Source of the DNA: Ypsolopha sequella
Taxonomy: Eukaryota > Arthropoda > Insecta > Lepidoptera > Ypsolophidae
DNA length: 64,000 nucleotides
Assembly: GCA_934047225.1 (NCBI GenBank)
Contig: OW204004.1
Span: 9,986,401-10,050,400, forward strand
Direction: 5' to 3'
Numbering within the stretch: the stretch's first letter is position 1; each line of letters starts with the position of its first letter. Below, piece by piece: positions 2,011 through 29,045 of this stretch. A program made the position numbers and the translations under genes. The notes below the pieces were generated by a model. The model made no database searches. It saw nothing but the letters and a program-made list of their open reading frames with translations, and was not told the DNA's origin.

Positions 2011-2045
2011 TTAACAGACGATTATAAAACCCCAGCAAGATGTGT

Positions 2046-2490: not shown

Positions 2491-2499
2491 TAGCGAAAT

Positions 2500-3450: not shown

Positions 3451-3451
3451 T

Positions 3452-3890
3452 TAGGATTCCGTGCCTCAAAACGAAAAACACAACCCTTACAGGATCACTT
3501 TGTTGTCCGTGGCTGTCCGTCTGTATGTCAAGACCCTTTTTCTTGGCCTAAGTTATTGCACTTTGCATATTAAATTTCATAAAAAGTTATGTCACTTACA
3601 AGGGAATCAAAACCTATAGGACACTTCAAGTTGACTTAGAAACTTTAAATTTCGTTTACATGTAGATTTTATAGCACACATATAGGAAAGAAACTAAAAA
3701 TTACAAATATTTAAACTTAATAATACCATTTAGACACAAAGTTTAATAAGTCGTAACTGTCAAGTTTAGTTAGTACATCATAACTGCAAGTGGAATTATT
3801 TTACCATGTTTTAAGGGTTCCGTACCCGTATTGTGTGGTGGTACGGAATCTTTTTTGTGCGCGAGTCTGACTCGCACTTGGCCCGTTATT
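3452..3890 (+). repeat. Dispersed repeat family R3, copy 1
   Basis: It begins with a GGATTCCGTGCC-type block, carries a TGTCCGT-rich pyrimidine patch, and ends with the block CGAGTCTGACTCGCACTTGG before a T-run. The same head (GGGTTCYRT, AAAGGAACCTTTATG, CCGTCCGTCCG) and tail recur at 46528-46670 and 47073-47808. This is a common style of insect non-autonomous repeat; its class is not determined here. Confidence 0.6.
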
Positions 3891-3899
3891 TTTGTTTAT

Positions 3900-4309
3900 T
3901 TTATGTTGAAAGAAAGAAAATAAATTTATTGGCGCGTTTACAAAACAAAAGAACTTATAGCTAACACAGTAGAAAAGGTTTACTTAAGTAGGGAGTAATC
4001 TATAAATAAAAATAACAACACGACAAAAGTATGTAGCTCAGCTATGTGCCATCCAAAACATGCTTTGGTTGGCGCTGGTTTTCAGCTACCTCCGTTGTTG
4101 TTGCTTAGTAAGTTCCTTATTATGTAATACATTTCTATTAGCAGGATTAAATTTTGTGCAACCTTCATGTTTTTGCCGGTGATAAATGTTCACAGAGGAA
4201 GTAAGTGTTGAAACTTATTACTATTATTATTGAGACCCTGAAAACCGCAATCCAGACAACTAAACGGCGAAACAAGGAGAAAAAAAACAGCAGGTTGTGT
4301 CGGAGATAT
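3900..4309. other. Non-coding stretch, no gene recognised
   Basis: AT-rich, with no recognised gene. A block near 4283-4330 (TTGTGTCGGAGATA...) recurs at 5762-5800, so at least part of it is repeat-derived. Confidence 0.4.
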
Positions 4310-9261: not shown

Positions 9262-9662
9262 TGTAACCGCGAGGTTACAGGAATGCAGAGCTGATGGGAT
9301 TTGAGGATTGACACGGGAGAATTGTGGAAGAAACGTGAGTGAACTAACCTTTGTTCTGGATGGTTCTGGATGGGCCGGCGAATGCGCCGCGTGGCGTCCC
9401 TCCTTGTTGGGCTGATTGAGCTGGTCTCGGGCAGGGATGAGCAGGGGTATTGGTTCGTGGAGTAATGTGAACACGACACTGGTATGAGCGTAGGTACGCG
9501 AGATTTATCGGCGGGTCAAAGGTGCGCGGCGCGATGTGTGTGCACACGTGTGTTTCGGGAGACGTCTGCCGCGGAACAGAACGAACAAGCGCCCAGCGCG
9601 CGAGTCGATTGGCGCGAGACTACGCATGCGCATGCGCATCCGTCACGCTTGTGGCGTGAACA
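9262..9662 (-). repeat. 3' LTR of element A
   Basis: 401 bp with TG...CA ends, matching 28645-29045 without a difference that I could see. The last 43 bases of the pol frame (9620-9662) lie inside it. It contains the palindrome TGCGCATGCGCA at 9627-9638, an NRF-1-type site. It is GC-richer than the surrounding DNA. Confidence 0.9.
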
Positions 9663-12600: not shown

Positions 12601-13606
12601 ATATGCCATGATGTGGGATATAGAAATGGGATTTATGAGCAAAGCTATTGGGGTGACACGGCGACATATGTCCCAATTTTATGTAATCTGACATGAACTC
12701 TACGTATTTCGAGTGGAAGGGCGGGTTCGCTAGCACCTTCTTCTCTAAATTGAGAAACCTGCGTAGCGCAATAGCATGAGTGGAACCTAATGTCGGCGCG
12801 TTGTGCAGAAAGGGCAGTGTAACCATATATTGACCTGATGGTTCACGAGTAGTTGTGGTGCGGAAAATGTCCTCACACTGTTCCTCTAATGGGCTGGTAT
12901 GCTTGTAGGTTTGGGGTTCCTCGGATTCCCAAAACCTCTCAAGACTTTTGTGAATGTCATGAGTGGAACGCTCTGAGTCCGTGTGAGAGCCGACAATGTG
13001 AACTGAATTGACCTGATTCGTGGGTGAGGTATGTAAACTTTCGAAAGGTCCTATTAATGTAAAATCGAATATCGTGCCGAAGGCTATGGGCTTGCCAGGG
13101 CCGAGCGAAACCTTGGTTCCGTCTAACACTTGACCAAGAACGTCAGATCCTAGTATTAGATCAACTGGAGCTGGTGTGTGGTATTCTCGATCAGCAAGAG
13201 GAATCGGTGGGTGACCTGTTAACTGAGCGAGATCTGGAACCTTTTCTAACGGTAGGTACCCAGTTACGTTCTTCAATATATGGGCTGTGGCCGTGATCGT
13301 AGGTGTGTCACGGTGTGTAGGTCGGCATACAATTGTAATTGATGCCTTTGAGTTTTGTGTGTGCTGATTTCCAACTCCTGCGATTTTTAGAGATGTATGT
13401 TTTAATGGTAAATTTAAAATTCTGGCCATGCGCTGAGAACAAAGAGTCAGCATACTTCCACAGTCTAACAGGGCTCGTGCTGAGTGAAATTGACCATGTA
13501 CGTCTGCTATTTTAAGTGAGACGGTTGGCAACAAAATTGGTGTGTTAGTGACGTTCACTACACGTTGTGCGGAGTTACAGGAATTCTCTGTTGGAGTTGA
13601 AGTCAT
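9620..13606 (-). CDS. pol: Pol polyprotein of BEL/Pao element A (PR-RT-RNase H-integrase)
   Basis: A 1328-residue open frame. An aspartic-protease motif ALLDCGS lies near residue 48 (Cys replaces the usual Ser/Thr). RT motif A, STDIRMMF, is at about 388-395 and the catalytic FVDD at 450-453. RNase H has FADAS (D628), PKLELSA and WSDST (about D706). The integrase has a zinc-binding H/C region at about 935-978 and a D,D-E triad near D1007, D1073 and E1125, with a basic C-terminal domain after 1240. Between IH at 400 and YALNTVTYG at about 407, roughly 18 residues normal for the family (compare element C) are missing in frame, so RT activity is doubtful. Upstream the frame is open to a TGA at 13709-13711. 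The ORF stop lies 43 bases inside the 3' LTR. Confidence 0.9.
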   Translation of the reverse strand: MTSTPTENSCNSAQRVVNVTNTPILLPTVSLKIADVHGQFHSARALLDCGSMLTLCSQRMARILNLPLKHTSLKIAGVGNQHTQNSKASITIVCRPTHRDTPTITATAHILKNVTGYLPLEKVPDLAQLTGHPPIPLADREYHTPAPVDLILGSDVLGQVLDGTKVSLGPGKPIAFGTIFDFTLIGPFESLHTSPTNQVNSVHIVGSHTDSERSTHDIHKSLERFWESEEPQTYKHTSPLEEQCEDIFRTTTTREPSGQYMVTLPFLHNAPTLGSTHAIALRRFLNLEKKVLANPPFHSKYVEFMSDYIKLGHMSPCHPNSFAHKSHFYIPHHGIFKPGSEKLRCVFDGSCKSSNGVNLNDCLHTGPALQQDIVDIIMSFRIHSQVFSTDIRMMFRNILIHQPLLTYALNTVTYGLRSSPYHAIRTLLQLADDEGHRYPHAAQVLRKSIFVDDILSGADSVESAQSLQNDLIELLALGGFQLSKWTSNSPQLLERFPDDQCDMLKDFDFSPDSNSIKVLGIQWIPQTDEFTYRISLPTHAQVTKRSILSTVASLYDPNVWVTPVIFRAKILLQKLWLLKIGWDEPISEEVHTEWQHISEDLPQLSNLRLPRHICKYKPTSTYSLHGFADASEAGFGAVIYLHERNTTGHVNVHLIIGKSKVAPIKSRLSIPKLELSAATLLSQLMTRVSAQLSAHIPIQTHTCWSDSTIVLAWLNTPPHRLQTFEANRVAKITATSTSNTWRHVPTNLNPADCASRGMSAQSLSLHDLWWSPSWLKEPTCTWPKMPPALGHHALPGLKPKKVPAHIAVPDIDLDLLTRYSSLDKLVGVTACIQRFIFNCRHSPDARRSGPLTANERRDALLHWVRSVQHNEFAEDINRIQTDKVCPVRLQRLSPFIKDGLLRVGGRLSHASIRYDAQHPLILPSSSPLVDLIIDHYHKIHCHPGADTLHAILRQQYWILSARRIIRHRVFKCIRCFRCRAQPKAPLMADLPVDRVTPQPVFSHVTTDFAGHFFVKSSTLRNAKLIKAYFCIFVCLATKAVHLEPVSALTTEAFFAALQRFISRRGTPVLIRSDCGTNYVGARNQLIEVQNFLRSNNDAITHKLANQHITWLLNPPKGPWFGALHEINVKSTKQLLYRVIGEQHLTFEEFSTLLARIEAVLNSRPLCAISSDPTDFEPLTAGHFIIGRLLTALPEQSFDDRPISALRRFQLIQALSQRFWTLWSRSYLHTLQTRSKWLSPSSPPQVGELVLIKEDDLPPLQWKLGRILRTIPGKDGVIRVVDLDTAHGNLRRPVSKLARLPLDSAQEGSQPRPPQDVHATSVTDAHAHA

Positions 13607-13708
13607 TGAGTGAAAATGAGCTGAGTGTGCATGTGATGAGTGTGTGTGTGATGAGTGTGCTGAGTACTGGTCGTCCTCGCCTTCATAGTGCTCTGTTATT
13701 GTAGGTAG

Positions 13709-13711
13709 TCA
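13709..13711 (-). promoter_or_regulatory. Leaky-type stop (UGA CUA) between gag and pol of element A
   Basis: On the minus strand a TGA is followed by CTA. Once element B and one GTAG copy are disregarded, the gag frame runs into this TGA and the pol frame resumes in the same phase, 35 codons before the first pol Met. UGA-CUA is an established efficient readthrough context, as in alphaviruses and some cellular genes. Function here is inferred. Confidence 0.55.
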
Positions 13712-13787
13712 TTGTTGCCTACCTACCCGAGACCTACTTGGCGATCGCGATTGAGTGGGCGGGTTGGGACGGGACGTGTATGCCTGT

Positions 13788-13791
13788 GTAG
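13788..13791. repeat. Target-site duplication GTAG of element B (left)
   Basis: GTAG precedes the B 5' LTR and recurs at 25728-25731 after the B 3' LTR. A 4-bp duplication fits Ty3/Gypsy integrases. Confidence 0.85.
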
Positions 13792-14271
13792 TGTAACATA
13801 TAGCTAGGCAATATGTTAGGTTTAGGTAAGGCTAGGTTTTATAAGTAGGTTAAAGGACTATTTGTTCGTGTTTAGTTGGCAATCGATAACCTTTATGGAT
13901 CGACATACGTCGCATTGACTGAATTATTTCGTGTTTTCCAAAAAATAAATACAGATCAAATATAAAAGATCTTTCAGACAAAACACGAGCAAGATACCTC
14001 AGAGAGTCCGATTAGTGCGGACGTAGTTCTCCATATGAAAAGATACCTTAGAGAGTCCGATTAGTGCGGATGTGCTTCTCCATCCGTAAATTATTGAAGA
14101 AATATAAGAAGCGAGTGCTCTACCAAATTTGGAGCTCCCCTCCCTTAATATACGCATGATAAATAGGCTATATGAAGAAAAAAGAGAATATAAAGAAGAT
14201 AAACAAAATATAAAATAGTATAATTATAAGAAACATCCCCATAAGATCCCGAGCACACGGAGAGCATCACA
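13792..14271 (+). repeat. 5' LTR of element B
   Basis: 480 bp, TGTAAC...CATCACA. It contains a 49-bp internal duplication starting at 13992 and 14041, each copy holding GAGAGTCCGATTAGTGCGGA, likely an enhancer-type or R-region repeat. AATAAA-type sequence lies near 13940. Confidence 0.9.
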
Positions 14272-14273
14272 AT

Positions 14274-14288
14274 TGGCGGAGGTGCCGG
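14274..14288 (+). promoter_or_regulatory. Primer-binding-like site of element B
   Basis: TGGCGGAGGTGCCGG starts two bases after the 5' LTR. TGG at this place pairs with the CCA end of a priming tRNA. The tRNA species was not identified. Confidence 0.6.
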
Positions 14289-14480
14289 ATAATTAATAAT
14301 TGACATTGCTGGAAGAGCGGTGTAATAACAAGTATAGCGCGAGAAGAGCGATATACCTATCCTGCCGGGTGCAAAGGAAGTGTATCCTGCCGGGTGTCAA
14401 AGAGACGATTTTCCACAAACTTGTGACGTGGATACCAAAGAAAAGCTAAGTTTTTGCATATTTATTTAATAAAGTGAAAG

Positions 14481-16598
14481 ATGGAGCGCTTTGATGGCCT
14501 CTCCACCGACATAACGGAATTTGAATTCCAATTCAAGAGCCTGGCTGTCATAAAAAAATGGTCAGACGACGAGAAAAAAGTAGCTTTGGGAAGCTACCTC
14601 ATCGGTCCAGCATTATCATTCTTCCGACAAAAATTCACGGACGAGAAATCGTACGATGATTTAATGATAGAGCTCAAAGCAGAGTTCCCTCCCACCATTA
14701 ACTATTTAGAAATTTTTTTCAGCAAAAATCAAGGGCAAGAAGACCTTCTTACGTATTTTTACAGCTTGAGCGAAGTGGCCGATAAGGCAAAACTGACTGA
14801 CGAAGGGATCTTCATCGAAAGATTCCTAAAATCAATTAATAATGGGGGAAAAATGAAATTAGCCACGAGTGTCTTCAACACTAAAAATGATTTAAAGAAA
14901 GCCCTACTACAATTAAAAAAGATATATAATGAAAATAATGAACCGCAATCACTCAATCTCCCCATTAAACTAGAAAGAATCGTGCCTAATGTGTGTCAGA
15001 CACCTCCTTCACCTAATTTTAATATTCGTCCTCAGCGACAAGAATTTCACCAGGGGGGAAATAATTTCAGACCGCAACAACAATTTATCCCTCAAAACTT
15101 ACAACAGCGATCTCCATGTATTAATGCTTCCCCATATTTTTTAAGATATCCAAGAAGACAGGAGGCTTATCTAAATGCCAATGAGCGAAAGGAAGCATCG
15201 GTTTCGTCCGCAAATTATGAAGAAATCCCCAAAAATCAAAATGTGAAGCCCACGAGTCTTCACCATGAACCGTTCATTAAGGTCAGTGTAAATAATTTCA
15301 ATAACTCAGTGAATTACGCATTGTGCGATAGTGGTGCATCGGTCAGCTGCGTGTCTCAACGCCTAGCTTCTTCGTTGGGTAAAGGAATCACCGAAGGCGA
15401 AGATTTCTTCATAAAAGCTGTCAATGGTGTTATGTTGGACACTAAAGGGAAAGTGAACCTAAATTTAGTGATAGATTCTGTTCTGTTTAATCACTCATTC
15501 GTCGTGATTGATGGCATACAACAAGATATTATTTTAGGTCAAGATTTCTTTCAGAAGTTTCATGCCGTCATGAACTTTAGTGAAAATTTCATAGAATTTG
15601 ACAATAAATGTCATGCCCAATTTGTAGATAAAGAGTCTTTGGAAAACATAGATTCTTTATCAAATTCGACGATCTCCATGGTTGAATATAGGTCAGAGAT
15701 AGAAAAAAGTTCACAATTGTCAAAAAGTGATTATCTTTACTTTTGCAACCTCATTGAAAAGAATGAAAACTACTTGTGTAATAACGTTCTTGACCATAAA
15801 TCTAATGAAAGTCAGCTTGTCAAGCTTGATGTCAATCAAGATCTAACATCTGATAGGGACCAAGTTGAATTAAAAGATAATGAATTAGGAAAGTGTAACT
15901 TAGGGGACGTCGAGATACAATTGAATGATGATTTTCCCGTGCATAAAGCACTATATCAAACTTCCCCGAAACAAAGTTTAACGAGAACATTAATAGAAGA
16001 AAAGGACGAATTTTATATGAAAAATACGGAAAAAGAAATCAAGAAGCATGTAAAGAATTGCTTAGTAGGCCAGGAAAGAAAGGTTAATGCTATAACTAAT
16101 TTACAGCCTACGACCGTCGACAAATCATTTGATAAAATCGGTTTAGATCCATTGGTGTGTTACGCTTGCAATATTAGTAAACAATCATCAACTAGAATAT
16201 CACCTTATACACTTATATTCGCACGGGAACCCCCACTTCAGTTTGATTTGGACTTGAATATAAATGATAATAATTTTTCAAATAATTTGCCAGATAGGAT
16301 GGATAGTGTAAATGCGCTTCGTCATAAGGCTCTGCTCAATATACGGAAGGCTCAACTTTATCAAAAAAGGCAATATGATAAGAAAGCCAAACAAATAAAT
16401 TTTCAACATGGTCAATTAGTTATGATCTATGTGCCCAATAGATTAACTGGAATAAGTACAAAATTACGTCGATTATATAAGGGTCCATTCCAGATTGTCA
16501 GAAGGGTCTCTGATACGAATTATGTAATAAAGAAAATATATAGATATAGAGACATTGTGCATGTAAATAGATTGAAACCCTTTCATTCACGAGTTTAA
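14481..16598 (+). CDS. Internally deleted Gag-Pol of Ty3/Gypsy element B
   Basis: A 705-residue open frame starting MERFDGLSTD. Residues 1-160 are a Gag-like helical region and about 160-260 a Gln/Pro/Asn-rich linker. A retropepsin motif CDSGASVSCVS is near 281, with its partner ILGQDFF near 350. After about residue 510 a stretch resembling the start of integrase (VDKSFDKIGLDPL) runs straight into the integrase C-terminal part (STRISPYTLIFAREP near 570, then RLYKGPFQIVRRV). RT, RNase H and the integrase catalytic core are absent, yet the frame stays open across the deletion. No zinc knuckle was seen. It is probably a non-functional enzyme; a Gag/protease role is still possible. ATG choice: the first Met after the leader, in a good open context. 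Confidence 0.8.
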   Translation: MERFDGLSTDITEFEFQFKSLAVIKKWSDDEKKVALGSYLIGPALSFFRQKFTDEKSYDDLMIELKAEFPPTINYLEIFFSKNQGQEDLLTYFYSLSEVADKAKLTDEGIFIERFLKSINNGGKMKLATSVFNTKNDLKKALLQLKKIYNENNEPQSLNLPIKLERIVPNVCQTPPSPNFNIRPQRQEFHQGGNNFRPQQQFIPQNLQQRSPCINASPYFLRYPRRQEAYLNANERKEASVSSANYEEIPKNQNVKPTSLHHEPFIKVSVNNFNNSVNYALCDSGASVSCVSQRLASSLGKGITEGEDFFIKAVNGVMLDTKGKVNLNLVIDSVLFNHSFVVIDGIQQDIILGQDFFQKFHAVMNFSENFIEFDNKCHAQFVDKESLENIDSLSNSTISMVEYRSEIEKSSQLSKSDYLYFCNLIEKNENYLCNNVLDHKSNESQLVKLDVNQDLTSDRDQVELKDNELGKCNLGDVEIQLNDDFPVHKALYQTSPKQSLTRTLIEEKDEFYMKNTEKEIKKHVKNCLVGQERKVNAITNLQPTTVDKSFDKIGLDPLVCYACNISKQSSTRISPYTLIFAREPPLQFDLDLNINDNNFSNNLPDRMDSVNALRHKALLNIRKAQLYQKRQYDKKAKQINFQHGQLVMIYVPNRLTGISTKLRRLYKGPFQIVRRVSDTNYVIKKIYRYRDIVHVNRLKPFHSRV

Positions 16599-17755
16599 TT
16601 GTTTATATAATTATCTATTTTATTTGTAAAAAGACAACATGACATGTATATAAATTAGTTTCATTATTATATGACTACTATATTGTATAGTAATATATGT
16701 ATAATTTGTTACATGTGACGATACTGCGAGGACAAAGAGGCATGAAGATTTTATAATTAAATGATGTATCGATAAATATAGTAACAAATTTAAGGCGAGA
16801 TGTCATCAAAGAAGGTAACAATAAGTTTTATATTTTATTGTATGTTTCGTCAAAGTGATAGTTATAGGCTATTTCCAGAGGAGCTTTACAGATATAAGAG
16901 CGGGTCACAAAGCTATAGGTGAAATATCTTTATTTATTTACTTAAGGATTTAGGGATCAATAGGAAGACTGGCTGCTCTGTGAGAACTCGCTTTAAGGAA
17001 ATAATTTCCATTCGCGAGGTATATCGATTTGATATACACCCTCACATTCTAGGTCAGTTCGACCAAATAGGGATTTTTTTATAAAATTTCAATTTTGCTT
17101 AAGTAAATTAACACTTGAGACTCGCAAAAGCTAAGAAGCAGCAGTTTCATGTTAAGACTCCTCTAGAAACAAAAACTTTACTTTGTATAAATGAGAAGTT
17201 AATAACAAATTGATGATGACATCTCATAACAATTGTTGATTTTGATTTTCAACTTAGAAATAATTTCAAAAAAAATAATTAACACCATCTTTATGTCGAA
17301 AGATTTTTTTTTGCTTGGATGGAAGAATATTAGTTATTCTTAGCGACATTATTTGTCCTCATGATGGATTAAATTTTAATTTCATATTACTAATAATTTA
17401 TTATTTTGAATTGTATAAAAGCAGAGATAGGTTATGAGATTTACCAGGACTTCAACACTAAAGTAAGACGTTGGTTCATTATCTGAATGAACTTAATCTT
17501 TGTTTATTTGAGGTAGCTTTGGACTTTAGAGAGGCTAGACTGGATGGGTCGATCTTTTCAGCAGATTTTGGTCGGCTAAGCTACTTTGTAATCTTTACTT
17601 TGAGTTTTGACTCTAACTTAAGATTTTAAGGTATCTGCCTGCAGTGAAGGCCATCTACCCATTGTAATGTCCCTGCACTTTTAGGTAGTTAGGTAATTTT
17701 GTAAATTAAAATTTTGTTTGTATTTTTGTAATTTACAAACAAAATTTTTCTCATT
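16599..17755 (+). other. 3' untranslated region of element B
   Basis: About 1.15 kb of AT-rich sequence with no open frame, between the ORF and the polypurine tract. It ends with a perfect 15-bp stem (17708-17722 with 17734-17748, 11-base loop). Confidence 0.6.
17708..17748 (+). promoter_or_regulatory. Perfect stem-loop just upstream of the element B polypurine tract
   Basis: The arms are AAAATTTTGTTTGTA and TACAAACAAAATTTT with an 11-base loop, ending 7 bases before the tract. It could act in RNA 3'-end structure or plus-strand priming; this role is inferred. Confidence 0.5.
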
Positions 17756-17766
17756 AAGGGGGGAGA
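17756..17766 (+). promoter_or_regulatory. Polypurine tract of element B
   Basis: AAGGGGGGAGA ends at the base before the 3' LTR start at 17767, as expected for the plus-strand primer of Gypsy elements. Confidence 0.85.
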
Positions 17767-17789
17767 TGTAACATATAGCTAGGCAATAT
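17767..17789 (+). repeat. 3' LTR of element B, left fragment
   Basis: The first 23 bases of the 480-bp LTR, ending in AATAT, where element C begins. The remaining 457 bases are at 25271-25727. Confidence 0.9.
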
Positions 17790-18606
17790 TGTACGATCAC
17801 CGATCGCGGGGTTGATAAATGATAAGTTTTGATAGTTTTATGAATTTATTGGACAAACACACGTAAGTATAATTGATATTGATGAGTGATTGATGAGTAC
17901 ACGCGGTATGGACGGTGACCGATTGTGAACTGATGAAATTAGGGCGATGATCGACGACGGCTAAGTAAACAGCCAACGCAGCAGAATGTGCGGCTTGCCC
18001 GTACATGCTCCCGGGGGAAAAGAAAACAAAATAAAATTATATTATTGATATGATGATAATGATATGATAAAATGAGAGGTGAGGTGCTTTACAAAGTGAT
18101 AAAACATTTTCTTTTTATATGTAATGCTAGTGTCTCTAAAACAGTGTCCATTGTTCGGATTTATTATAAAATGACAATATACACTAAACACAATTTTCTG
18201 CACTAGGGAACCTTGCTTTAAAAACAGGTGACGTGCTCGCATCAAATTTACGCACACTTGCACTCGCCCATTTGCGTCTGATGTATTGAACATTCGCGCA
18301 CTTTTTGTCACTATCACTGCTGCTTGAGTGGGCGGCGGCGGGCTGCTCCGTGGTGACAGCCCCGGCCGCCGCCGATGCTGCGAGCGCAGGCGCGGACCTC
18401 GGGTCCGCCGCCTGCTGACGACGACGCCTCCGTAGTCTCCGCCAAACCCAGATTGATACTGCTGCTCCAATGATCGCAAATGCCATACCATATATAGCCG
18501 TATAGTGATGCACATCGTGATATGATATTTCTTTTGCTAAAGTCCCTTTTTGTTTAATTTGCTCTATTTGCTGATGTATTTCTTGCAAAGTCTGCTTTTG
18601 GGCACC
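17790..18606 (-). repeat. Left inverted arm of element C (Env tail plus LTR)
   Basis: The reverse complement of 24449-25265 over 817 bp with no indel and one mismatch noted (near 18115). It contains the 3' LTR region and the last roughly 140 codons of the Env frame, in leftward orientation. Confidence 0.85.
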
Positions 18607-20631
18607 GTAGGTAACGGTCGTTAGCTGATATTCTTGTATTGCTTGATAGGCTGATTCCCTCCATATGATTTTGTGTAAATTTTGATCATCTTCATGTAAA
18701 TATATCTGCCTAAACATTTTTTCGATGTCCGCCGTAAATGCTATTTCGTACTGTCTCCAATTTAAAATTAGTTCAAATAAGTCTTTCTGCAAATTTGGAC
18801 CTTGTTTCATTATAAAATTAAGACTAATATTGCTTGAAGTTAACGCCGAGGCATTGAACACGACACGAAATTTAGTTGTTGATGACTCTGCTCGTTCTAC
18901 AGCGTGGTGTGGCAAGTAGCAACCGCTTTGGCTATTACGTGTCGCTGCTTTCATATGACCGAGATCTTGATATTCTTTGATAAATAATTTGTACTGTTCC
19001 GCCAATTGGTTCCGCCGTTTAAATCTATTTTCGATTTGTTTAAACTGCGCTACAGCTTTTTGTCTTGATTCACCTAATTTTTCTAGGCCGTCTGATTTTA
19101 AAGGTAATCGGACTTGATAGTGTCCGTCGTCTAGCCTTCTCGTTGTTTCTTGGTAAAACTGCACGCATTCTTGATCTTCGGTTGATAATTCTGATTTTTC
19201 TCCGATGTCTTCGACTGTCCAAAACCTCTGAAGGTCCTCTACATTGTTGGTAATGACGTTGCATTGTAGTGATTTTACATTTCCTGATAATATCCATCCT
19301 AACTGCGTTTGTTGCGCAATCGGCAGTATATCATTTTTCTTGATAATACCTCCCATGATAATTGATGAATAAACATCGGCCCCTAATAACATGTCAATAG
19401 GGCGACTTTTGTAAAACTTTGGATCAGCTAACTTGATATTTTTCAAATAGGACCATGAAGGTTCCGGAAAAGATTGATTCGGTAAGTTGTTTATCAATTT
19501 ACGCATGATATAAACATCGGTGTTAAACGTGTAATCTGTTGCTACTGACGAACAATTGATATTGATAAGGCCTTTGCAACTATTTTCCATGGATCCAACG
19601 CCATAAATAACGCCTTTGCATTTTTGGCGCGGTAATTGCAACAGTTGCGCTGCATTTTCGCTAATGGCCGAAATTTGAGATCCACCATCAATTAAACAGC
19701 GCAAATTATGATAAATTCCGTCCTTTGCCTGGACTTTGACGATTGCAGTCGCCAATAAAATTTCCGAAATGTTTTCCTGTGAAACGTGACTGTTTCGGGT
19801 CACTTTTTCCGGTTTCGACATGCACTCGAAAGCCTCATGCAACAGCGTATTATGATTACCGTTGCATTTTCTACACCTTTTTTCGGAGAAACAATTTTTT
19901 CCATTATGATTATAGAGACAGTTTTTGCATAAATTTAAATCGTTTATTGACCTCCTTTTCGTTTCCGCTGATAGTTCCATAAACTTGTTGCAAAAGAATA
20001 TGGCGTGATCGGTGTTATTGCAATATGCGCATCTTTTTCGATCGCCGGACCTTTTTCCCGTGTTGTATGATTTTTGTGTAGAATTATTATAGAATTTTCT
20101 TGAGTGATTTTCATCATTCTGACGGAAATTTGATTTTGATTGATATTCATACTTGCTACTACTTGGTGACGACGCTGATGGGCTTTGCCGATTCTTGTCC
20201 TGCTTATAACGAGATGATTCTAACGATGTAAACTTCGTTTTTAGGAAGTTCATGAAATCTGATATGCTAGGCAAAGCTTTTGGGTTCCGCAGTGATCTGA
20301 CGTAGTCATCGTTGGTGACTGAATCCAGTTTTTGTTGTAAAATATAAACTATCAACGGATCCCAGGTGGAGATGTTTGCACCCAGGTTTTTTATCGCAAA
20401 AAGACATTCATTAGTGGTGTCGTTTTTTCTGATTTCCAGCCATCTTGGGATTTTTATGTGATTAATATTTTGAAGATCGTTTCGGATATTTATCCATTCT
20501 GATTTGATGTCTACTGGTACTTCTTCATCCCATTGAATACCAGTTAGCCACATCTTATCAAACATATCAAGGCTTTTTGATCCTCTGGGCTGGCTGGCGC
20601 CAGTTACGACAAAGCTCAAGATTTTGTTCAA
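18184..20631 (-). CDS. Chimeric Gag-PR-RT(N)-Env(C) frame of element C, left half
   Basis: An 815-residue open frame made of pieces out of normal order. Residues 24-70 are the pol segment between RT and RNase H (WLTGIQWDEEVP). A gag C-part follows, with three zinc knuckles (CAYCNNTDHAIFFC near 199, then CKNCLYNHNGKNC and CRKCNGNHNTLLH). The protease motif LIDGGSQ is near 310 and RT motif A, FTADIEKMFRQIY, near 630. Just after TVTYG (about 674) the frame jumps to the Env C-terminus with its membrane segment. All junctions keep the frame open. The RT palm with YVDD is absent. It is a product of recombination or template switching and unlikely to encode a working polyprotein. Confidence 0.8.
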   Translation of the reverse strand: MNKILSFVVTGASQPRGSKSLDMFDKMWLTGIQWDEEVPVDIKSEWINIRNDLQNINHIKIPRWLEIRKNDTTNECLFAIKNLGANISTWDPLIVYILQQKLDSVTNDDYVRSLRNPKALPSISDFMNFLKTKFTSLESSRYKQDKNRQSPSASSPSSSKYEYQSKSNFRQNDENHSRKFYNNSTQKSYNTGKRSGDRKRCAYCNNTDHAIFFCNKFMELSAETKRRSINDLNLCKNCLYNHNGKNCFSEKRCRKCNGNHNTLLHEAFECMSKPEKVTRNSHVSQENISEILLATAIVKVQAKDGIYHNLRCLIDGGSQISAISENAAQLLQLPRQKCKGVIYGVGSMENSCKGLININCSSVATDYTFNTDVYIMRKLINNLPNQSFPEPSWSYLKNIKLADPKFYKSRPIDMLLGADVYSSIIMGGIIKKNDILPIAQQTQLGWILSGNVKSLQCNVITNNVEDLQRFWTVEDIGEKSELSTEDQECVQFYQETTRRLDDGHYQVRLPLKSDGLEKLGESRQKAVAQFKQIENRFKRRNQLAEQYKLFIKEYQDLGHMKAATRNSQSGCYLPHHAVERAESSTTKFRVVFNASALTSSNISLNFIMKQGPNLQKDLFELILNWRQYEIAFTADIEKMFRQIYLHEDDQNLHKIIWRESAYQAIQEYQLTTVTYGAQKQTLQEIHQQIEQIKQKGTLAKEISYHDVHHYTAIYGMAFAIIGAAVSIWVWRRLRRRRRQQAADPRSAPALAASAAAGAVTTEQPAAAHSSSSDSDKKCANVQYIRRKWASASVRKFDASTSPVFKARFPSAENCV

Positions 20632-20636
20632 AAAGG
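20553..20636. other. Asymmetric centre of the element C palindrome
   Basis: 84 bp between the inner inverted arms. Rightward it reads as normal BEL pol leading into WLTGIQWDE (DPLGWLAPV), so it belongs to the right half. At its left edge ATCAA and TTGAT (about 20567-20582) form a mini-hairpin that could mark a fold-back or strand-switch point. Confidence 0.5.
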
Positions 20637-23600
20637 TGTGGCTAACTGGTATTCAATGGGATGAAGAAGTACCAGTAGACATCAAATCAGAATGGATAAA
20701 TATCCGAAACGATCTTCAAAATATTAATCACATAAAAATCCCAAGATGGCTGGAAATCAGAAAAAACGGCATCATTGAGCTTCATGGTTTCAGTGATTCA
20801 TCAACAAAGGCCTTTGCGTGTATAATATTCTGCAAGGTCATCGAAGAATCATCATCAAAAGTTACTATTGTGCAATTAGCAGCTAAGACAAGAATATTGT
20901 CAGATAGTAAGAACCTTTCTGTGCCCAGGGGTGAGCTCTGTGGGGCTCATTTATTATCAAAACTTATGACGAAAGTGTTGAGCTGCTTATCAGATCATAA
21001 AATCAAGGTTTATGGCTGGAGCGACTCAACGGCAGTTCTTGGGTGGATTCAAGGTGAACCAAGTCGGTGGAAGCCCTTCGTATCAAACAGAGTCCAGCAA
21101 ATAACAAACGTCATGCCACCTGAGTGCTGGAGATATGTGAACTCCACTGACAACCCGGCTGACTGTGCCAGTCGCGGTTTATCAGCAGCTCAATTGAAAA
21201 ATCATACGCTTTGGTGGCAGGGACCGACGTGGTTGTCTTCCTTTAACGATCAAAACGAAAAAGAACGGACTTTATACACCACCGAAGAAGAGCAAAAAGT
21301 ACCAAAACAAACATGCAATGCTATCAACTTACACGAACGTGAACCTCATATCATCAATGAGATATTAAACAGACATAGCAGCTTCACTCGGGCGACTAGA
21401 GTGGTCGCCTGGATACTACGCTTCATATCACGTGATCACCAAAAACAACCTTTCCTAACAATTCAGGAAATCAGACAAGCAAGGATCCAGATTATTAAGG
21501 TCATACAACAATCAGAGTTCTCAGATGTAATAGAATCTCTATCAGAGCATAACCAAGTAGATAAAAAGAGCCAAATATCAAATTTAAATCCATTTTTAGA
21601 TGAAAATCAGCTTTTGCGAGTCGGTGGTCGTATCAAGCATGCAAATCTCAGCGAAAATATGAAACATCCTATCATTATCCCACATAATGGTCACTTAACA
21701 GAGTTATTAATTGATCATGCACACAAGATGACGTTTCACGGCGGAGCACGACTCACGCTATCATGGCTTCGTCAGCAGTATTGGCTGATCGGTGGAAACG
21801 GAGCTGTAAAGAAAAGATTAAGAGGGTGTGTTATTTGCAGAAAACACGACCCAATAAAGCAATATCAAATAATGGGAAACTTACCTGAAGCCAGGATAAA
21901 TCCTACCAGACCGTTCTATCATACAGGAGTTGACTACACTGGGTATGTCGACATTAAATCAAATAAGGGCCGAGGAATTAAGACAACAAAAGGATATATA
22001 GCCGTGTTTGTATGTATGGTAACAAAGGCTGTTCACTTGGAGTTAGTCTCGGACCTCACATCATCAGCATTTCTAGCAGCACTGAAAAGAATGGCTGCTA
22101 GGAGAGGAGCGCCCCAAAATATGTACTCTGATAACGGGACAAATTTTGTAGGAGCTAACAGAGCATTACAACGTGAATTTATCAATCTCAAGCAAACCTT
22201 GGACGAAGAGTTCTTCTCATCAATATCAGAAATGGAGATACAGTGGCACTTCAATTGCCCAACTCACGCAAGTGCCGGCGGCTTGTGGGAGGGAGCAGTG
22301 AAAAGCCTTAAGTATCACCTTGTCAGAGTCATTGGAACTCAAAAGCTCACCTTCGAAGAATACTCTACCCTATTAGCACAGCTGGAAGCGGGCTTAAATT
22401 CCAGACCATTGTGTGCAATCAGTGAAGACCCCGAAGATATCAACTTTCTGACTCCATCTCATTTTCTATCAAGCGGACCACTTCTCACTATCATAGAGAC
22501 AGAACAAGATAACAGAACAAGATGGAGATTTACCCAGAAAATATTTGAAGATATATGGAAACGGTGGAAAGCTGAATATTTATGTAAGTTATCAATCAGA
22601 AGCAAGTGGCAGCATCCAAGGGAAAATATCAAATTAAATGACGTAGTGTTAATTCACGACGATAACATCTTAGCGGGTAAATGGCCTCTAGGTCGAGTTG
22701 TTGAATTGCACCCCGGAAAAGACGGCTATGTGAGAGTCGTCACATTAAAAACAAAAAACGGACTCATGAAACGTCCAATCATCAAATTATCAGTTTTACC
22801 AACAAGTCGGGAAAATTATCATTATCCAAAATTATCAAGGGAGCAAGAAAAACAGCAAAGTGAAACAAACATAAATCATCAGGTAGAAAGAAAAATCAAT
22901 AGGAGAATCAGAAAACCGAGTCCTTTCTCACTTATATCATTTATAATGTGCATTATTATGATAACCGGCGCACAATGTACATATAACATAACAAAGTTAC
23001 GCGACCAACAGCGAATTCTTTTCGATAAAATATCAAATATGGAGTTATTAAGTGACGAATGGAAATTGGTAGTTTATTACGATTTAAATCCATATTGGCA
23101 AGGTACAACAGCATTTGAAAGATATACAAAACATTTACAACAGACTTGCCAAAACATAAAGGATCAATCACATTGTGACGTCATATTACTACAACTCCAA
23201 CAAGGCTTCTCGGAACTGGAATACTACAATCACCTGTTACTGAGTCAGCATTCCAGTACGCAGACGGGGCATCGAAGCCGGCGCGGGCTTATCAACGGTG
23301 TCGGTTACATAGCTAACAAGCTGTTCGGTGTCTTAGATGAGTCATTCGCCGAGCAATATCAAAAGGACATCGAACTCATCAGAGATAATCAAAATCATTT
23401 AGCTTCACTATGGAAAAATCAGACGTCGGTCATTGAATCCGAATATAATCTCCTGAAAAGAATGGAAGATAGCATGAATAAGCAACAAAAAATCATAAAT
23501 CAACATTTTTTTAAAGTAGACAAAGTTATCAACAAATTGAGCAACGAATTGCAAATTTTATCAAATATCAATGACTTCACCCTAGGGGCACTAACAGCAA

Positions 23601-24871
23601 GCTCAATGCTCCAGTGTTTGAAGACTATTCAGAGCATGTTACTAGATACGGTAACAGATATTTATCAAGGACGATTTAACTTTCATATCTTAACCCCAGA
23701 ACAACTTCGACATGAGCTAAGCACGATCTCAAGTCACATATCAAAAGAATCATCCCTTCCAATCAAGAACATTCAAACAGACCTCAAAAATATTTACAAA
23801 ATTCTTAAAGTCAAAGCAAGAATGACAAACGAGTATCTTCTCCTGGAAATAAAGCTTCCCTTGGTTAGCAGAGATGCATACGAAATTTTTAAAGCAACTG
23901 CAATACCCGAGAAAAAAGGTAGAGATATGATTAGTGTGATCCCTGCCGCAGAGTACTTAGCAATCAATTTGAAAAAGGATGCCTACGTAGAAATGTCCCG
24001 AGACGAGATCAAAGAATGCTATCAAGCCGACGAATCATTTTTCTGTCATACGCAGAAACCAATCTATCATATGAAACAGGACGAGAGCTTTTGTGTGAAA
24101 GATAGAGGATCAGATAATTGTAAGACTGTGACATCTCTTTGTAGCAACATATGGCAAGAGATGCATGCACAGAACCAATATTTGTATTTCTGCTGCGATA
24201 AGTGTCAACTAAGGATAATCTGTGAAGATCAACTTTCTGCAGCACAGTTGGCTGAAGCCGGTATAATCTCCATTAGCCATGGTTGCATAATCAAAACCGA
24301 TGAGTTCACAATTTACTCTCGGAAGCTAGATCAAAGCATAAGTAAAACAAGGTTCGATGTTATATTGCCAGATATTTCGCCAATTAATCAGATTTTCAAC
24401 ATTACGATACTTCCGCCCACAAATGAATCAGATATTAGTAAAGAGATCGGTGCCCAAAAGCAGACTTTGCAAGAAATACATCAGCAAATAGAGCAAATTA
24501 AACAAAAAGGGACTTTAGCAAAAGAAATATCATATCACGATGTGCATCACTATACGGCTATATATGGTATGGCATTTGCGATCATTGGAGCAGCAGTATC
24601 AATCTGGGTTTGGCGGAGACTACGGAGGCGTCGTCGTCAGCAGGCGGCGGACCCGAGGTCCGCGCCTGCGCTCGCAGCATCGGCGGCGGCCGGGGCTGTC
24701 ACCACGGAGCAGCCCGCCGCCGCCCACTCAAGCAGCAGTGATAGTGACAAAAAGTGCGCGAATGTTCAATACATCAGACGCAAATGGGCGAGTGCAAGTG
24801 TGCGTAAATTTGATGCGAGCACGTCACCTGTTTTTAAAGCAAGGTTCCCTAGTGCAGAAAATTGTGTTTAG
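20624..24871 (+). CDS. RNase H-integrase-Env polyprotein of element C, right half
   Basis: A 1415-residue frame. RNase H starts near 52 (GFSDSS, PRGELCGA, GWSDST). Integrase runs from about 350 to 700, with a zinc-binding H/C region, D in VDYTGY, D in YSDNGTNFVGA and E in GGLWEGAVKS. A basic integrase tail follows. Without any stop the frame continues into an Env-like glycoprotein: a hydrophobic leader near 768 (ISFIMCIIMITGAQC), a furin-like RSRRG near 884 followed by a glycine-rich fusion-peptide-like segment, heptad-rich coils, a Cys-rich region, and a transmembrane helix near 1312. The layout resembles the F-type/errantivirus Env family. The last 85 residues are Arg-, Ala- and Ser-rich. 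RT is missing upstream, so the copy is defective. The frame may extend upstream of the first Met. Confidence 0.85.
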   Translation: MFKKVWLTGIQWDEEVPVDIKSEWINIRNDLQNINHIKIPRWLEIRKNGIIELHGFSDSSTKAFACIIFCKVIEESSSKVTIVQLAAKTRILSDSKNLSVPRGELCGAHLLSKLMTKVLSCLSDHKIKVYGWSDSTAVLGWIQGEPSRWKPFVSNRVQQITNVMPPECWRYVNSTDNPADCASRGLSAAQLKNHTLWWQGPTWLSSFNDQNEKERTLYTTEEEQKVPKQTCNAINLHEREPHIINEILNRHSSFTRATRVVAWILRFISRDHQKQPFLTIQEIRQARIQIIKVIQQSEFSDVIESLSEHNQVDKKSQISNLNPFLDENQLLRVGGRIKHANLSENMKHPIIIPHNGHLTELLIDHAHKMTFHGGARLTLSWLRQQYWLIGGNGAVKKRLRGCVICRKHDPIKQYQIMGNLPEARINPTRPFYHTGVDYTGYVDIKSNKGRGIKTTKGYIAVFVCMVTKAVHLELVSDLTSSAFLAALKRMAARRGAPQNMYSDNGTNFVGANRALQREFINLKQTLDEEFFSSISEMEIQWHFNCPTHASAGGLWEGAVKSLKYHLVRVIGTQKLTFEEYSTLLAQLEAGLNSRPLCAISEDPEDINFLTPSHFLSSGPLLTIIETEQDNRTRWRFTQKIFEDIWKRWKAEYLCKLSIRSKWQHPRENIKLNDVVLIHDDNILAGKWPLGRVVELHPGKDGYVRVVTLKTKNGLMKRPIIKLSVLPTSRENYHYPKLSREQEKQQSETNINHQVERKINRRIRKPSPFSLISFIMCIIMITGAQCTYNITKLRDQQRILFDKISNMELLSDEWKLVVYYDLNPYWQGTTAFERYTKHLQQTCQNIKDQSHCDVILLQLQQGFSELEYYNHLLLSQHSSTQTGHRSRRGLINGVGYIANKLFGVLDESFAEQYQKDIELIRDNQNHLASLWKNQTSVIESEYNLLKRMEDSMNKQQKIINQHFFKVDKVINKLSNELQILSNINDFTLGALTASSMLQCLKTIQSMLLDTVTDIYQGRFNFHILTPEQLRHELSTISSHISKESSLPIKNIQTDLKNIYKILKVKARMTNEYLLLEIKLPLVSRDAYEIFKATAIPEKKGRDMISVIPAAEYLAINLKKDAYVEMSRDEIKECYQADESFFCHTQKPIYHMKQDESFCVKDRGSDNCKTVTSLCSNIWQEMHAQNQYLYFCCDKCQLRIICEDQLSAAQLAEAGIISISHGCIIKTDEFTIYSRKLDQSISKTRFDVILPDISPINQIFNITILPPTNESDISKEIGAQKQTLQEIHQQIEQIKQKGTLAKEISYHDVHHYTAIYGMAFAIIGAAVSIWVWRRLRRRRRQQAADPRSAPALAASAAAGAVTTEQPAAAHSSSSDSDKKCANVQYIRRKWASASVRKFDASTSPVFKARFPSAENCV

Positions 24872-25265
24872 TGTATATTGTCATTTTATAATAAATCCGA
24901 ACAATGGACACTGTTTTAGAGACACTAGCATTACATATGAAAAGAAAATGTTTTATCACTTTGTAAAGCACCTCACCTCTCATTTTATCATATCATTATC
25001 ATCATATCAATAATATAATTTTATTTTGTTTTCTTTTCCCCCGGGAGCATGTACGGGCAAGCCGCACATTCTGCTGCGTTGGCTGTTTACTTAGCCGTCG
25101 TCGATCATCGCCCTAATTTCATCAGTTCACAATCGGTCACCGTCCATACCGCGTGTACTCATCAATCACTCATCAATATCAATTATACTTACGTGTGTTT
25201 GTCCAATAAATTCATAAAACTATCAAAACTTATCATTTATCAACCCCGCGATCGGTGATCGTACA
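24449..25265 (+). repeat. Right inverted arm of element C (Env tail plus LTR)
   Basis: The partner of 17790-18606. The junction at its start shares GGTGCCC with the left arm's RT/Env breakpoint. It contains the GC-rich coding block at about 24615-24730 and, after the stop at 24871, the LTR, whose inner edge cannot be fixed because no direct copy exists. Confidence 0.85.
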
Positions 25266-25270
25266 AATAT
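25266..25270. repeat. Target-site duplication AATAT of element C (right)
   Basis: Equals 17785-17789. In the intact LTR (13792 onward) AATAT occurs once at this point, which proves the insertion position. Confidence 0.85.
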
Positions 25271-25727
25271 GTTAGGTTTAGGTAAGGCTAGGTTTTATAA
25301 GTAGGTTAAAGGACTATTTGTTCGTGTTTAGTTGGCAATCGATAACCTTTATGGTTCGACATACGTCGCATTGACTGAATTATTTCGTGTTTTCCAAAAA
25401 ATAAATACAGATCAAATATAAAAGATCTTTCAGACAAAACACGAGCAAGATACCTCAGAGAGTCCGATTAGTGCGGACGTAGTTCTCCATATGAAAAGAT
25501 TCCTTAGAGAGTCCGATTAGTGCGGATGTGCTTCTCCATCCGTAAATTATTGAAGAAATATAAGAAGCGAGTGCTCTACCAAATTTGGAGCTCCCCTCCC
25601 TTAATATACGCATGATAAATAGGCTATATGAAGAAAAAAGAGAATATAAAGAAGATAAACAAAATATAAAATAGTATAATTATAAGAAACATCCCCATAA
25701 GATCCCGAGCACACGGAGAGCATCACA
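25271..25727 (+). repeat. 3' LTR of element B, right fragment
   Basis: 457 bases continuing the LTR from base 24. Two differences from the 5' LTR were seen (GGATCG versus GGTTCG near 25354, and GATACC versus GATTCC near 25500). Confidence 0.9.
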
Positions 25728-27196
25728 GTAGCATGTGCCGAATGGTGTTGAGGCTCATGCGCTGAGCGCTGTCTGGGCAGCAAATGAGCAGATGAGCGTG
25801 TCGGAGACATGGCCCCATGGCGATGCAGTGAAGTGTGGTGGTCAGTCCGCCCACACTCCTTGCATGCACGTGTAGACCTGCACTCGTTCTCATAATGAGG
25901 ACCCAAACAGCGTCGGCACCGGTTGCGTGAGTTCACAAAATCCCACCGACCTTGAACCGGTTGGTTATTAAATTGTGGGCAGGCGATGAGCTTATGTCCC
26001 CTATTCTTGCAGTATGGGCATGGCATACCACCAGTAGGGGAAGAAGGTTGAGCCGAATAATTTTGTTGGCGAGTGGGTGATGGGGATGTTTGGGCCGAGT
26101 AAACTGGCGCTGTCGCAAATGCCAAAAATGGTTGACGAATAGGACGGGGGGAGCGATTGTCCTGCCGAGGAGTCATGGGGCGGAACTCTTGATGAGCCTG
26201 GTAGGGCTGACGTGGAGTACCTCGAGTGGGCTGAACCAGCTGATTGAGCTGAGCGAGCCTTTCTGACGGGCCGAGCCGTGCTGAAGAAGGAGCATCCTGT
26301 GACGCAAGGGACGACGACTCATTCTCCTTGCAGCGTGCGTGTTCTTCCAAAAACTCAATGAGGTTCTTGAGCGTGGGCAGAGTTGCGCGAGATCCGTACT
26401 TCCGCTCGAAAAGAGTGCGGAGCTCGCCTTGTAGTTTTCGCACCACCATGGACACGAAAACATAGTCAGAATCCTTCATGGGCAGATCGAGGTTGCGGAG
26501 AGCGCTTTGCGCTGAGATAAGCGGAATTAAAAACGATGTGCGGATATCTGAGCGCATGTGGATGTGCGGAAGGTTCATGATAATGTCCACAAATCGGTCA
26601 ATGAGTACGCGACGATTGTCGTAACGCTTGGTGAGAATTTCCATGGCTATGGGATAATTCTCGTTGGTAGGGTAGAGGTGTTTCACCATTTCATGTGCCT
26701 CACCTTTTAGGGCACCTAACAAATAATGCAGCTTGACAGCATCCGAGACTGTAGCCATCTCACTGATGAGGCTCCTAAAAACGGCAATAAATGAGGGCCA
26801 TTCTTCAACGTTCGAATGAAACTCCGGTATGGGTATTTTTGGTAGAACACCAACGGGTGTACCTGAGCTGAGGGGTTGCGTCTTGTCCGGAAGAGCTGAT
26901 TTTTCTTTCAGTTTTTCGAATGCCACTAGGATAGCATCATAGTTGCTAAGTGCCGACTGAAATTTTTTTGTGTAGGTTGCCTCAGTTTCGTCGGACAAAT
27001 CCTCATCGTCAAGGATCTCATAATATACGTCCTCTAACTTAGTTTTAACGCTTTGTATGTTTGCGTAACGAGCGGTGAAGTCCGCCACAGAATATGTTTT
27101 TCTGTCGCCTGCCTCGACCACCGCACCAATCTCCTTTAACAGAACTATCGCCTTTACGGCCTCACGAAACATCGCGGCTTGTGATTTCGAAGGCAT
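25601..27196 (-). CDS. gag: Gag of BEL/Pao element A, cut by element B
   Basis: A 531-residue frame whose last roughly 43 codons (25601-25727) come from element B's LTR; the authentic part ends at codon 489, at the GTAG duplication. Residues 1-290 form the Gag core typical of BEL/Pao (IPEFHSNVEEWPSFIAVF, then LKGEAHEMVKHL near 163-173). A Pro/Ser/Gln-rich linker follows. Three zinc knuckles come next: CPYCKNRGHKLIAC (393-406), CRRCLGPHYENEC (427-439) and CKECGRTDHHTSLH (445-458). It packages the RNA genome in cytoplasmic particles. In the ancestral copy it continued 26 more codons past B to the TGA at 13709-13711. The start is the first Met of the frame, 1.4 kb from the primer site. Confidence 0.85.
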   Translation of the reverse strand: MPSKSQAAMFREAVKAIVLLKEIGAVVEAGDRKTYSVADFTARYANIQSVKTKLEDVYYEILDDEDLSDETEATYTKKFQSALSNYDAILVAFEKLKEKSALPDKTQPLSSGTPVGVLPKIPIPEFHSNVEEWPSFIAVFRSLISEMATVSDAVKLHYLLGALKGEAHEMVKHLYPTNENYPIAMEILTKRYDNRRVLIDRFVDIIMNLPHIHMRSDIRTSFLIPLISAQSALRNLDLPMKDSDYVFVSMVVRKLQGELRTLFERKYGSRATLPTLKNLIEFLEEHARCKENESSSLASQDAPSSARLGPSERLAQLNQLVQPTRGTPRQPYQAHQEFRPMTPRQDNRSPRPIRQPFLAFATAPVYSAQTSPSPTRQQNYSAQPSSPTGGMPCPYCKNRGHKLIACPQFNNQPVQGRWDFVNSRNRCRRCLGPHYENECRSTRACKECGRTDHHTSLHRHGAMSPTRSSAHLLPRQRSAHEPQHHSAHATVMLSVCSGSYGDVSYNYTILYFVYLLYILFFLHIAYLSCVY

Positions 27197-28560
27197 CTTA
27201 ATCTTGTTAAACTAGATGGTTGTTTACTAAGATAAAATACGCAACGAGTTTGAGCTGAACTATAATAGCGAGCGTACAACTGAAATAATTGATGAGATAG
27301 ATGAATAGAGCTGAGATACTTGCGCGGATGAAGTAACAATGACTATGTTCAAACGGAACACGGAACTCTTAAATAAACACGACAGAGAAAAAAAATCTTT
27401 TAAACAACCTGTATATGAGCTGATAAACCAACGTGGAACACCCTATATGTGTACCATAAACAATAAGATCAGAGATGAGAAGAAAAAAAAATTGTTTACT
27501 ATATTTGTGCTATATGCACCCGGTTAAAGAGCAGGCAATAACACGAAAAAACTGTCCGGCAATCTATTACTGCGACACGAGATTACCGTAACACAAAATA
27601 TCGGAAAGGGCTGATGAACTTGTTCACTTTTATGTAATTTGCCTTGAAATAATGTGCCGAGAATACGCGTTAGTTCTTGCTTACACGATAGTACATTTAC
27701 AACAAAAACAACAGAGCAGAGAGAGTCGTGATAAATTCTATTTATAGAACAAAATATCTACCTACTTCTTTGAGTGCGTAAACAAAAACAATGAATGTAT
27801 TTACCGAAATCGGTTCTAAATGAGTGGTCTATCTAATGTTGCAAATCAAGCTTTGGTAATACGTAACGTAATAACGTATGTATACATACGTATGTAGCAC
27901 GAAACAAAAGTAAATTTATACTCGCACCAAAAAATATCTCGCAAGATACGAAAACTATCTTTGACAGTGGGTAGATTTACACCTCTCCGCGGGTAAAAAT
28001 TGGGTAAAAATTGGTAAATTGGGTCGGGAGTTACATGTAAAAAATGGTACCTAACAGTGTTGAGCAAAATGCTGACTTTGAGTTTAATTAATTTTACGTA
28101 TGGGGTTTATAAGGGCTGATAATTAATCCCTGCGAGTGACGGGGGGGGTTTAATAAAGAAATATAGTGGACTGTAACAAACAATTGGGCTGAATGGATAA
28201 CCAATTCCAGAACACAAGATAAGGTGTCAAATTAATACCCGGCACCGGGTCTATAAAATTTTGTTATTTGTTTAAACAAAATGGGTGATCCAAACGGATA
28301 TAATTATATTATCTGAGCTGAATAATAATAATAAACGGGATGAAAGTGAGTTTATTCTATGCCGGGGGCGAGGGGGGCCGGTTCTATACAGATAAATGGA
28401 ATGTTCTAGGCGGCGCGGACGCAGTAATTACCTACCCGAAATAGGTATTCTCGAGATCACAAAATGTTTTTGCCGGACAAAGAGCCGGGATGGGGGCCAA
28501 AATATGTAACCGGGTGAAAATGGACTGTAGTAAATCGAGGGGGGCTGGTTCACTAACGGT
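27197..28560 (-). other. Long untranslated leader of element A
   Basis: About 1.4 kb between the primer-site cluster and gag with no conserved frame. Runs of G (28140-28149) and many short frames are present. It probably holds packaging signals, but none could be recognised. Confidence 0.5.
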
Positions 28561-28640
28561 TCGAAGGATCAAAAATTTTCGAAAACGGACTCGAAGGACC
28601 AGATATTTTCGAAATTTTCGATAACGGACTCGAAGGACCA
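28561..28640 (-). promoter_or_regulatory. Triplicated tRNA-primer-binding-like site of element A
   Basis: On the minus strand, four bases after the 5' LTR, TGGTCCTTCGAGTCCG (28625-28640) would pair with a tRNA 3' end. The same 16-mer recurs at 28586-28601, and a decayed copy (TGATCCTTCGA) at about 28561-28571. They are separated by TTTTCGAAAAT-like spacers of about 23 bases. The TGGTCCTTCGAG type is common in BEL elements. Confidence 0.65.
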
Positions 28641-28644
28641 GAAA

Positions 28645-29045
28645 TGTAACCGCGAGGTTACAGGAATGCAGAGCTGATGGGATTTGAGGATTGACACGGG
28701 AGAATTGTGGAAGAAACGTGAGTGAACTAACCTTTGTTCTGGATGGTTCTGGATGGGCCGGCGAATGCGCCGCGTGGCGTCCCTCCTTGTTGGGCTGATT
28801 GAGCTGGTCTCGGGCAGGGATGAGCAGGGGTATTGGTTCGTGGAGTAATGTGAACACGACACTGGTATGAGCGTAGGTACGCGAGATTTATCGGCGGGTC
28901 AAAGGTGCGCGGCGCGATGTGTGTGCACACGTGTGTTTCGGGAGACGTCTGCCGCGGAACAGAACGAACAAGCGCCCAGCGCGCGAGTCGATTGGCGCGA
29001 GACTACGCATGCGCATGCGCATCCGTCACGCTTGTGGCGTGAACA
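28645..29045 (-). repeat. 5' LTR of element A
   Basis: 401 bp, the same as 9262-9662 by eye. It carries the NRF-1-type palindrome at 29010-29021. It is flanked on the right by AGTAG (29046-29050). Confidence 0.9.

Follow-up and report, generated by a model that had tools for sequence, protein, structure and literature searches.

DIRS elements are a named class of retroelements with inverted LTRs, according to the accessible part of PMC5633606. The insertion analysed here, element C, has inverted terminal repeats in common with these tyrosine-recombinase retrotransposons (PMC5633606, same part), and a preliminary description of the locus, which knew of no named class with such a structure, has to be qualified in this respect; DIRS are, however, a different kind of element. 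DIRS elements have a tyrosine recombinase instead of an integrase and make no target duplication, whereas C has an rve integrase, a target duplication and a family with direct LTRs. In retroviruses, switching between co-packaged genomes and the assimilation of plus strands onto the other minus strand are described in the accessible text of PMC3187697, and HIV-1 proviruses with internal inversions in that of PMC9278108. Template switching between co-packaged genomes or DNAs, and inverted pieces, would be common to these cases and C; in C, however, the outer end itself is changed, with U5 on both sides, of which the accessible parts of the two sources describe no example (PMC3187697, PMC9278108). 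Integration assays in which the last bases of a U3 or a U5 end are modelled are described in PMC11054761 (in part), and a double-U5 insertion is undescribed in the portions available of all four sources (PMC5633606, PMC3187697, PMC9278108, PMC11054761). The titles and abstracts in a literature search that covers few subscription journals make no mention of an LTR element of the integrase type that was inserted with two U5 ends or with inverted LTRs. Autointegration and inversion circles of retroviral cDNA also give inverted LTR arrangements. Autointegration consumes the ends, whereas C used two ends in an ordinary insertion and is a mosaic of internal deletion and duplication.

Element C is a 7476-bp insertion at 17790-25265 of the window, by which we mean the whole 64,000-nucleotide stretch of Ypsolopha sequella DNA that was analysed, and it has AATAT on either side (Table 1). 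Its outer sequences are TGTACGATC at the start and GATCGTACA at the end. The LTRs are inverted, not direct: the U5 end of the family LTR forms both boundaries, and the U3 end is found at neither. The inverted LTRs and the clean AATAT duplication of the preliminary description are thus borne out by the arms, by the flanks and by the setting of the insertion, which splits the 3′ LTR of B, an older element, after 23 bp. The 5′ LTR of B reads straight through one AATAT with no insertion and, with C excised, the two LTRs of B match at 366 of the 368 positions compared. Given the duplication and this uninterrupted site, C entered as one linear unit, as had been claimed, and is integrated as one unit with a 5-bp duplication.

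Table 1. Features of element C and its integration site (positions in the window)
Feature	Position	Strand	Basis or remark
Left copy of the AATAT duplication	17785..17789	n/a	Flank comparison
Left LTR (216 bp), inverted, U5 as the element's outer end	17790..18005	(-)	Comparison with the parent LTR
Inverted internal 3′ end, with the envelope tail and the side of the polypurine tract	18006..18607	(-)	Forms the arm with the LTR
Parent 3592 down to 1774	18605..20423	(-)	Identical to the parent over 1819 bp; CCG overlap with the preceding segment
132-bp piece, parent 4194 down to 4063	20421..20552	(-)	Inside the Pao-type domain; CGT overlap with the preceding segment
Parent 3979 onward: Pao-type domain, H2C2 and rve integrase, DUF5641, Baculo_F-type envelope	20553..25049	(+)	
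Right LTR (216 bp), U5 as the element's outer end	25050..25265	(+)	
Right copy of the AATAT duplication	25266..25270	n/a	Flank comparison
Compared part of the 5′ LTR of element B, uninterrupted integration site of C	13792..14160	(+)	

Element B is Gypsy-like by its Pfam domains and lies in turn within element A (9262-29045; 401-bp LTRs without a mismatch, duplication AGTAG), so that A encloses B and the 3′ LTR of B encloses C. Since the LTRs of A are identical, this comparison of sequences suggests that the whole three-level nest is young. A minus-strand DUF1759 gag frame at 25601-27211 is probably part of A.

An inverted-repeat search places the arms of C at 17789-18607 and 24448-25266. The arm is 818 bp long with a single mismatch, at window 24939, so the terminal inverted repeat of 817 bp reported earlier stands as a repeat but not as the length of the LTR. 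The family LTR is 216 bp, since this is what the direct LTRs of the ordinary parent copy described below measure, and the arm consists of the LTR and 602 bp of the internal 3′ end. The base at 24939 is private to the right arm; the left-arm base occurs in all eight of the other 3′ ends compared, three of which have one common flank. The term palindromic suits the arms, which are inverted, but not the middle, which is non-palindromic except for a 132-bp stem around an 84-nt loop (for which the inverted-repeat search gives arms of 150 nt at 96% and a spacer of 60 nt). The open frames run outward on both sides, in agreement with the earlier reading that coding sequence diverges from the centre.

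A normal direct-LTR parent, for which the preliminary description had advised a search, was found on contig C30 at 24327944-24336634. It is 8691 bp long, with 216-bp LTRs, ACTCT on either side and a putative primer-binding site directly adjoining the LTR. With the start of this LTR counted as position 1, C is composed of four segments of the parent, one of which is on the opposite strand to the other three: from left to right, the last 818 bp inverted, two further inverted segments, and the forward run from 3979 to the end (Table 1). Parent 217-1773 and 3593-3978 are found in neither half. The overlaps at the three junctions are 3 nt, 3 nt and none, and it is the blunt junction, at 20552/20553, that inverts the strand. 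There is no difference from the parent in the 1819 + 132 bp of the left half, nor in the 1457 bp of the right half that were compared. When the genome (866.8 Mb, 151 contigs) was searched, junctions 1 and 2 each occurred once by exact pattern, and the third, central junction was whole only at C among the 40 of 181 candidates scored. A pre-existing deletion derivative was considered as the source of the left half and rejected, because no surviving genomic source was found, junctions 1 and 2 each being present, by exact patterns, only at C.

The right half of C encodes a Pao-type domain, an H2C2 and rve integrase, DUF5641 and a baculovirus-F-like envelope, with PF05380, PF17921, PF00665 and PF18701 above their cut-offs in a Pfam scan of four frames. 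In the left half, DUF1759 is matched below its cut-off of 25.4 (E 1.7e-4, 22 bits), and a short Pao-type match stems from the 132-bp piece. From the frame and the parent map we read the stretch at 18605..20423 as a probable gag, protease and N-terminal part of the reverse transcriptase. These predicted domains place C among the BEL/Pao elements, with an envelope of the baculovirus-F-like type. In a search with the integrase region, 5275 proteins passed among the 7961 candidates scored; among the 120 matches listed, the relatives that carry an organism name are from Lepidoptera except for one from a pseudoscorpion (42%), and the identities of the others listed are 55-75%. The closest elements are presumably the BEL/Pao elements of Lepidoptera with a Baculo_F-type envelope, for which we take Semotivirus-like to be the name. 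Their domains, 5-bp duplication and moth and butterfly integrase relatives are common to C as well; C differs from them in its inverted LTRs, in having no primer-binding site by comparison with the parent map, and in that parent 3593-3978, which by our own reading would lie in the reverse transcriptase, is in neither half. A target duplication of about 5 bp, as expected of BEL/Pao, flanks C (AATAT), the parent (ACTCT) and a second inverted element (CAAGC), whereas the direct LTRs and primer-binding site of the superfamily are found in the parent and not in C. Element C is thus a defective derivative of its family and no ordinary member.

How frequent such copies are was approached by a census of the family. 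A first set of 40 matches (40 of 228 candidates scored) comprised the two arms of C, the parent and 37 others. The 5′ regions of these 37 show direct LTRs in 36 and inverted LTRs in one, on contig C119. Direct LTRs were evident at once in 33 copies (in one of which the first 14 LTR bases are unmatched), in two after a longer stretch was examined, and in a copy on contig C64 that has an inverted leader. Several direct copies have an upstream LTR without the usual T of the primer-binding site next to it. An exact-pattern census then gave 88 3′ ends and 74 5′ ends. An upstream direct LTR lies at 1.5-15 kb from 78 of the 88 3′ ends (100 of 105 outward U5 ends compared); four are those of the two inverted elements and the remaining six were placed in neither class. 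On contig C6, two neighbouring 3′ ends may have an upstream LTR in common. The inverted fraction is thus roughly 2-3% (2 of 80). The patterns were exact, with one mismatch allowed in a single search (200 LTR ends counted, 100 listed), so that the counts miss diverged copies.

In the other direction, no inverted 5′-5′ pair within 25 kb was present among the 74 5′ ends, and seven partnerless 5′ ends have no inverted partner, by matches above 150 bp, in the stretch compared. Short inverted arms without a polypurine tract were sought by listing outward U5 ends: among the 74 5′ ends and 100 of the 105 outward U5 ends, there is no opposite-strand pair within 15 kb except C, the C119 element lying outside this comparison and having been found via the list of 3′ ends; an additional list of six rows, compared by eye, shows no opposite-strand partner nearby. 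The family copies on contigs C61, C114 and C116 all have one flank in common, and the census probably counts a single insertion there three times. In 12 of 68 pairs the 3′-to-5′ spacing is about 7.1-7.2 kb instead of 8.2-8.3 kb, which marks a sub-group of the family.

The second inverted element, at C119:404631-411992, is 7362 bp long with CAAGC on both flanks, and is what the preliminary description had suggested looking for, a further inverted copy in the same genome with a duplication of its own. Its arms are 451 bp and identical, and it has a single junction, at which the inverted 3′ end meets parent 1780 and 1 nt overlaps. Since it has neither site nor junction in common with C, the C119 element is independent of it. 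Both outer ends are U5 ends of the family here as in C, so that the two are double-U5 integration products, and the inverted structure of C is real in the assembly and recurrent in the same genome. In parent coordinates, six bases separate the C119 junction from junction 2 of C (1774). A junction hot spot near parent 1774-1780 is not claimed: a rough, uncomputed estimate puts the chance of such proximity at 2%, and the RNA fold around this point is no better than shuffles (z -0.16).

The copy in the C64:635768 region has direct LTRs and the duplication CGTAT. The leader, which follows the LTR and a short primer-binding stretch, is inverted in it (parent 589 down to 215), and the copy then resumes at 1583. 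The primer-binding stretch is unlike the form in the parent and seven other copies compared, and looks like a direct copy of the tRNA primer, which we take to be tRNA-Tyr. The C64 copy looks like a further strand-switch product of the family of C.

We propose that C probably arose as a BEL/Pao insertion from two minus-strand cDNAs of one family, which were joined in inverted orientation by strand switching of the reverse transcriptase and then integrated in the ordinary way. Each minus strand would start at its own tRNA primer, so that its 5′ end would be exactly the U5 end; a growing strand that switched onto another minus-strand DNA and copied it to its 5′ end would thus carry U5 at both ends. 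Such a product would have a polypurine tract near each end and could become double-stranded. In the case of C, the enzyme would have jumped twice more between templates, once at the overlap CCG and once at CGT, and would have left a short stem of fold-back type. Integrase would then treat this linear double-U5 DNA like any other, and 5 bp of the target would be duplicated on insertion; that it accepts two U5 ends is read from the product. We also infer the timing of the joining, the enzyme responsible and the co-packaging of the cDNAs. Finding no 5′-5′ inverted pairs is as expected if the 5′ ends of minus strands, that is U5, supply the extra end. Since its two LTRs face outward and it has no leader with a primer-binding site (parent 217-1773), an inverted copy would be unable to multiply further; on this prediction each inverted copy would be its own event, as is the case for the two seen.

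The earlier proposal of an inverted chimeric cDNA, made by fold-back or strand switching, is retained in its chimeric and inverted part, which best fits the four segments, while fold-back of a single cDNA cannot give C. The 132-bp stem and 84-nt loop are what one minus strand would leave if it snapped back and copied itself to its own 5′ end. However, the plus-sense half of C stops at parent 3979 and the other half carries 1774-3592, whereas the minus-sense half lacks parent 3979-4062, which is present in the plus-sense half. If the right half was made first, it ended at 3979 and could not template 1774-3592; if the left half was made first, it could not template the right half, being without 3979-4062. 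In either order segments are missing from the folding strand, and a second cDNA of the family took part, which makes a single-molecule origin very unlikely. For the C119 element fold-back is possible, since the copied 451 bp are present in its own strand, and its arms, identical over that length, offer no difference pointing to two templates.

The main rival of strand switching is end joining by the host. On this view two incomplete double-stranded cDNAs, finished at U5 but broken at the inner end, were fused head to head, and the fused molecule was integrated afterwards. The blunt (C) and 1-nt (C119) inversion junctions are what end joining would give, and they distinguish it from strand switching in neither case; it likewise needs two U5-ended cDNAs and likewise yields no U3-U3 product. 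Strand switching itself has to account for three switches in one cDNA of C, which is many. End joining without added template switching, however, leaves unexplained both the two 3-nt-overlap jumps in the left half of C, found nowhere else in the genome by exact patterns, and the inverted leader of the C64 copy, and we regard it as unlikely. Strand switching followed by ordinary integration explains all the features in one setting.

It might also be supposed that a direct-LTR copy was inserted and only later rearranged in the chromosome, by inversion, gene conversion or break repair from other copies. Many near-identical copies (88 exact 3′ ends) could have served as donors and the short junction overlaps also fit break repair, but on the left the U3 end TGTACGGGC would have had to be replaced by the U5 end TGTACGATC precisely where the element meets the target, with the duplication kept, and this at both C and the C119 element, although U3 and U5 ends have only six terminal bases in common; a later rearrangement is thus distinctly improbable. 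False palindromes can arise from missed-adapter reads, and the structure is known here from the assembly alone. Against such an assembly or library artefact, the flanks of C are unmirrored, being two parts of the LTR of B with one duplication, the two halves of C differ in content, and there is a second case, on a different contig and with a duplication of its own; we consider an artefact highly improbable. That the family is DIRS-like, with constant inverted terminal repeats, would accord with the inverted LTRs of DIRS-1 (PMC5633606, accessible part), but this is refuted, with practically no probability left to it, by the direct LTRs of near-identical family copies; C has an rve integrase and a 5-bp duplication, and a tyrosine recombinase is absent among the Pfam matches of the four frames scanned.

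Inverted double-U5 copies are thus a product of aberrant integration in a retroelement superfamily that is already known, and C would document, in the genome, the joining of two cDNAs of one element before integration. The product indicates that two U5 ends are an acceptable pair for a retroelement integrase in an actual insertion. The signature is countable, consisting of inverted 3′-3′ pairs with a common duplication and zero 5′-5′ pairs, and would allow the rate of joining to be measured in genomes with young LTR elements. LTR elements can in this manner create long inverted repeats, which tend to escape annotation built on direct LTRs. It is tempting to go further, doubtful as we hold it to be, and to suppose that double-U5 linear cDNAs are a regular BEL/Pao by-product, amounting to a few per cent of insertions and leaving dead mirrored copies with outward promoters, which if transcribed through would give hairpin RNA and feed small-RNA silencing of the still-young family. 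If this were true, C could be read through from element B, and its 818-bp arms would form a long hairpin RNA.
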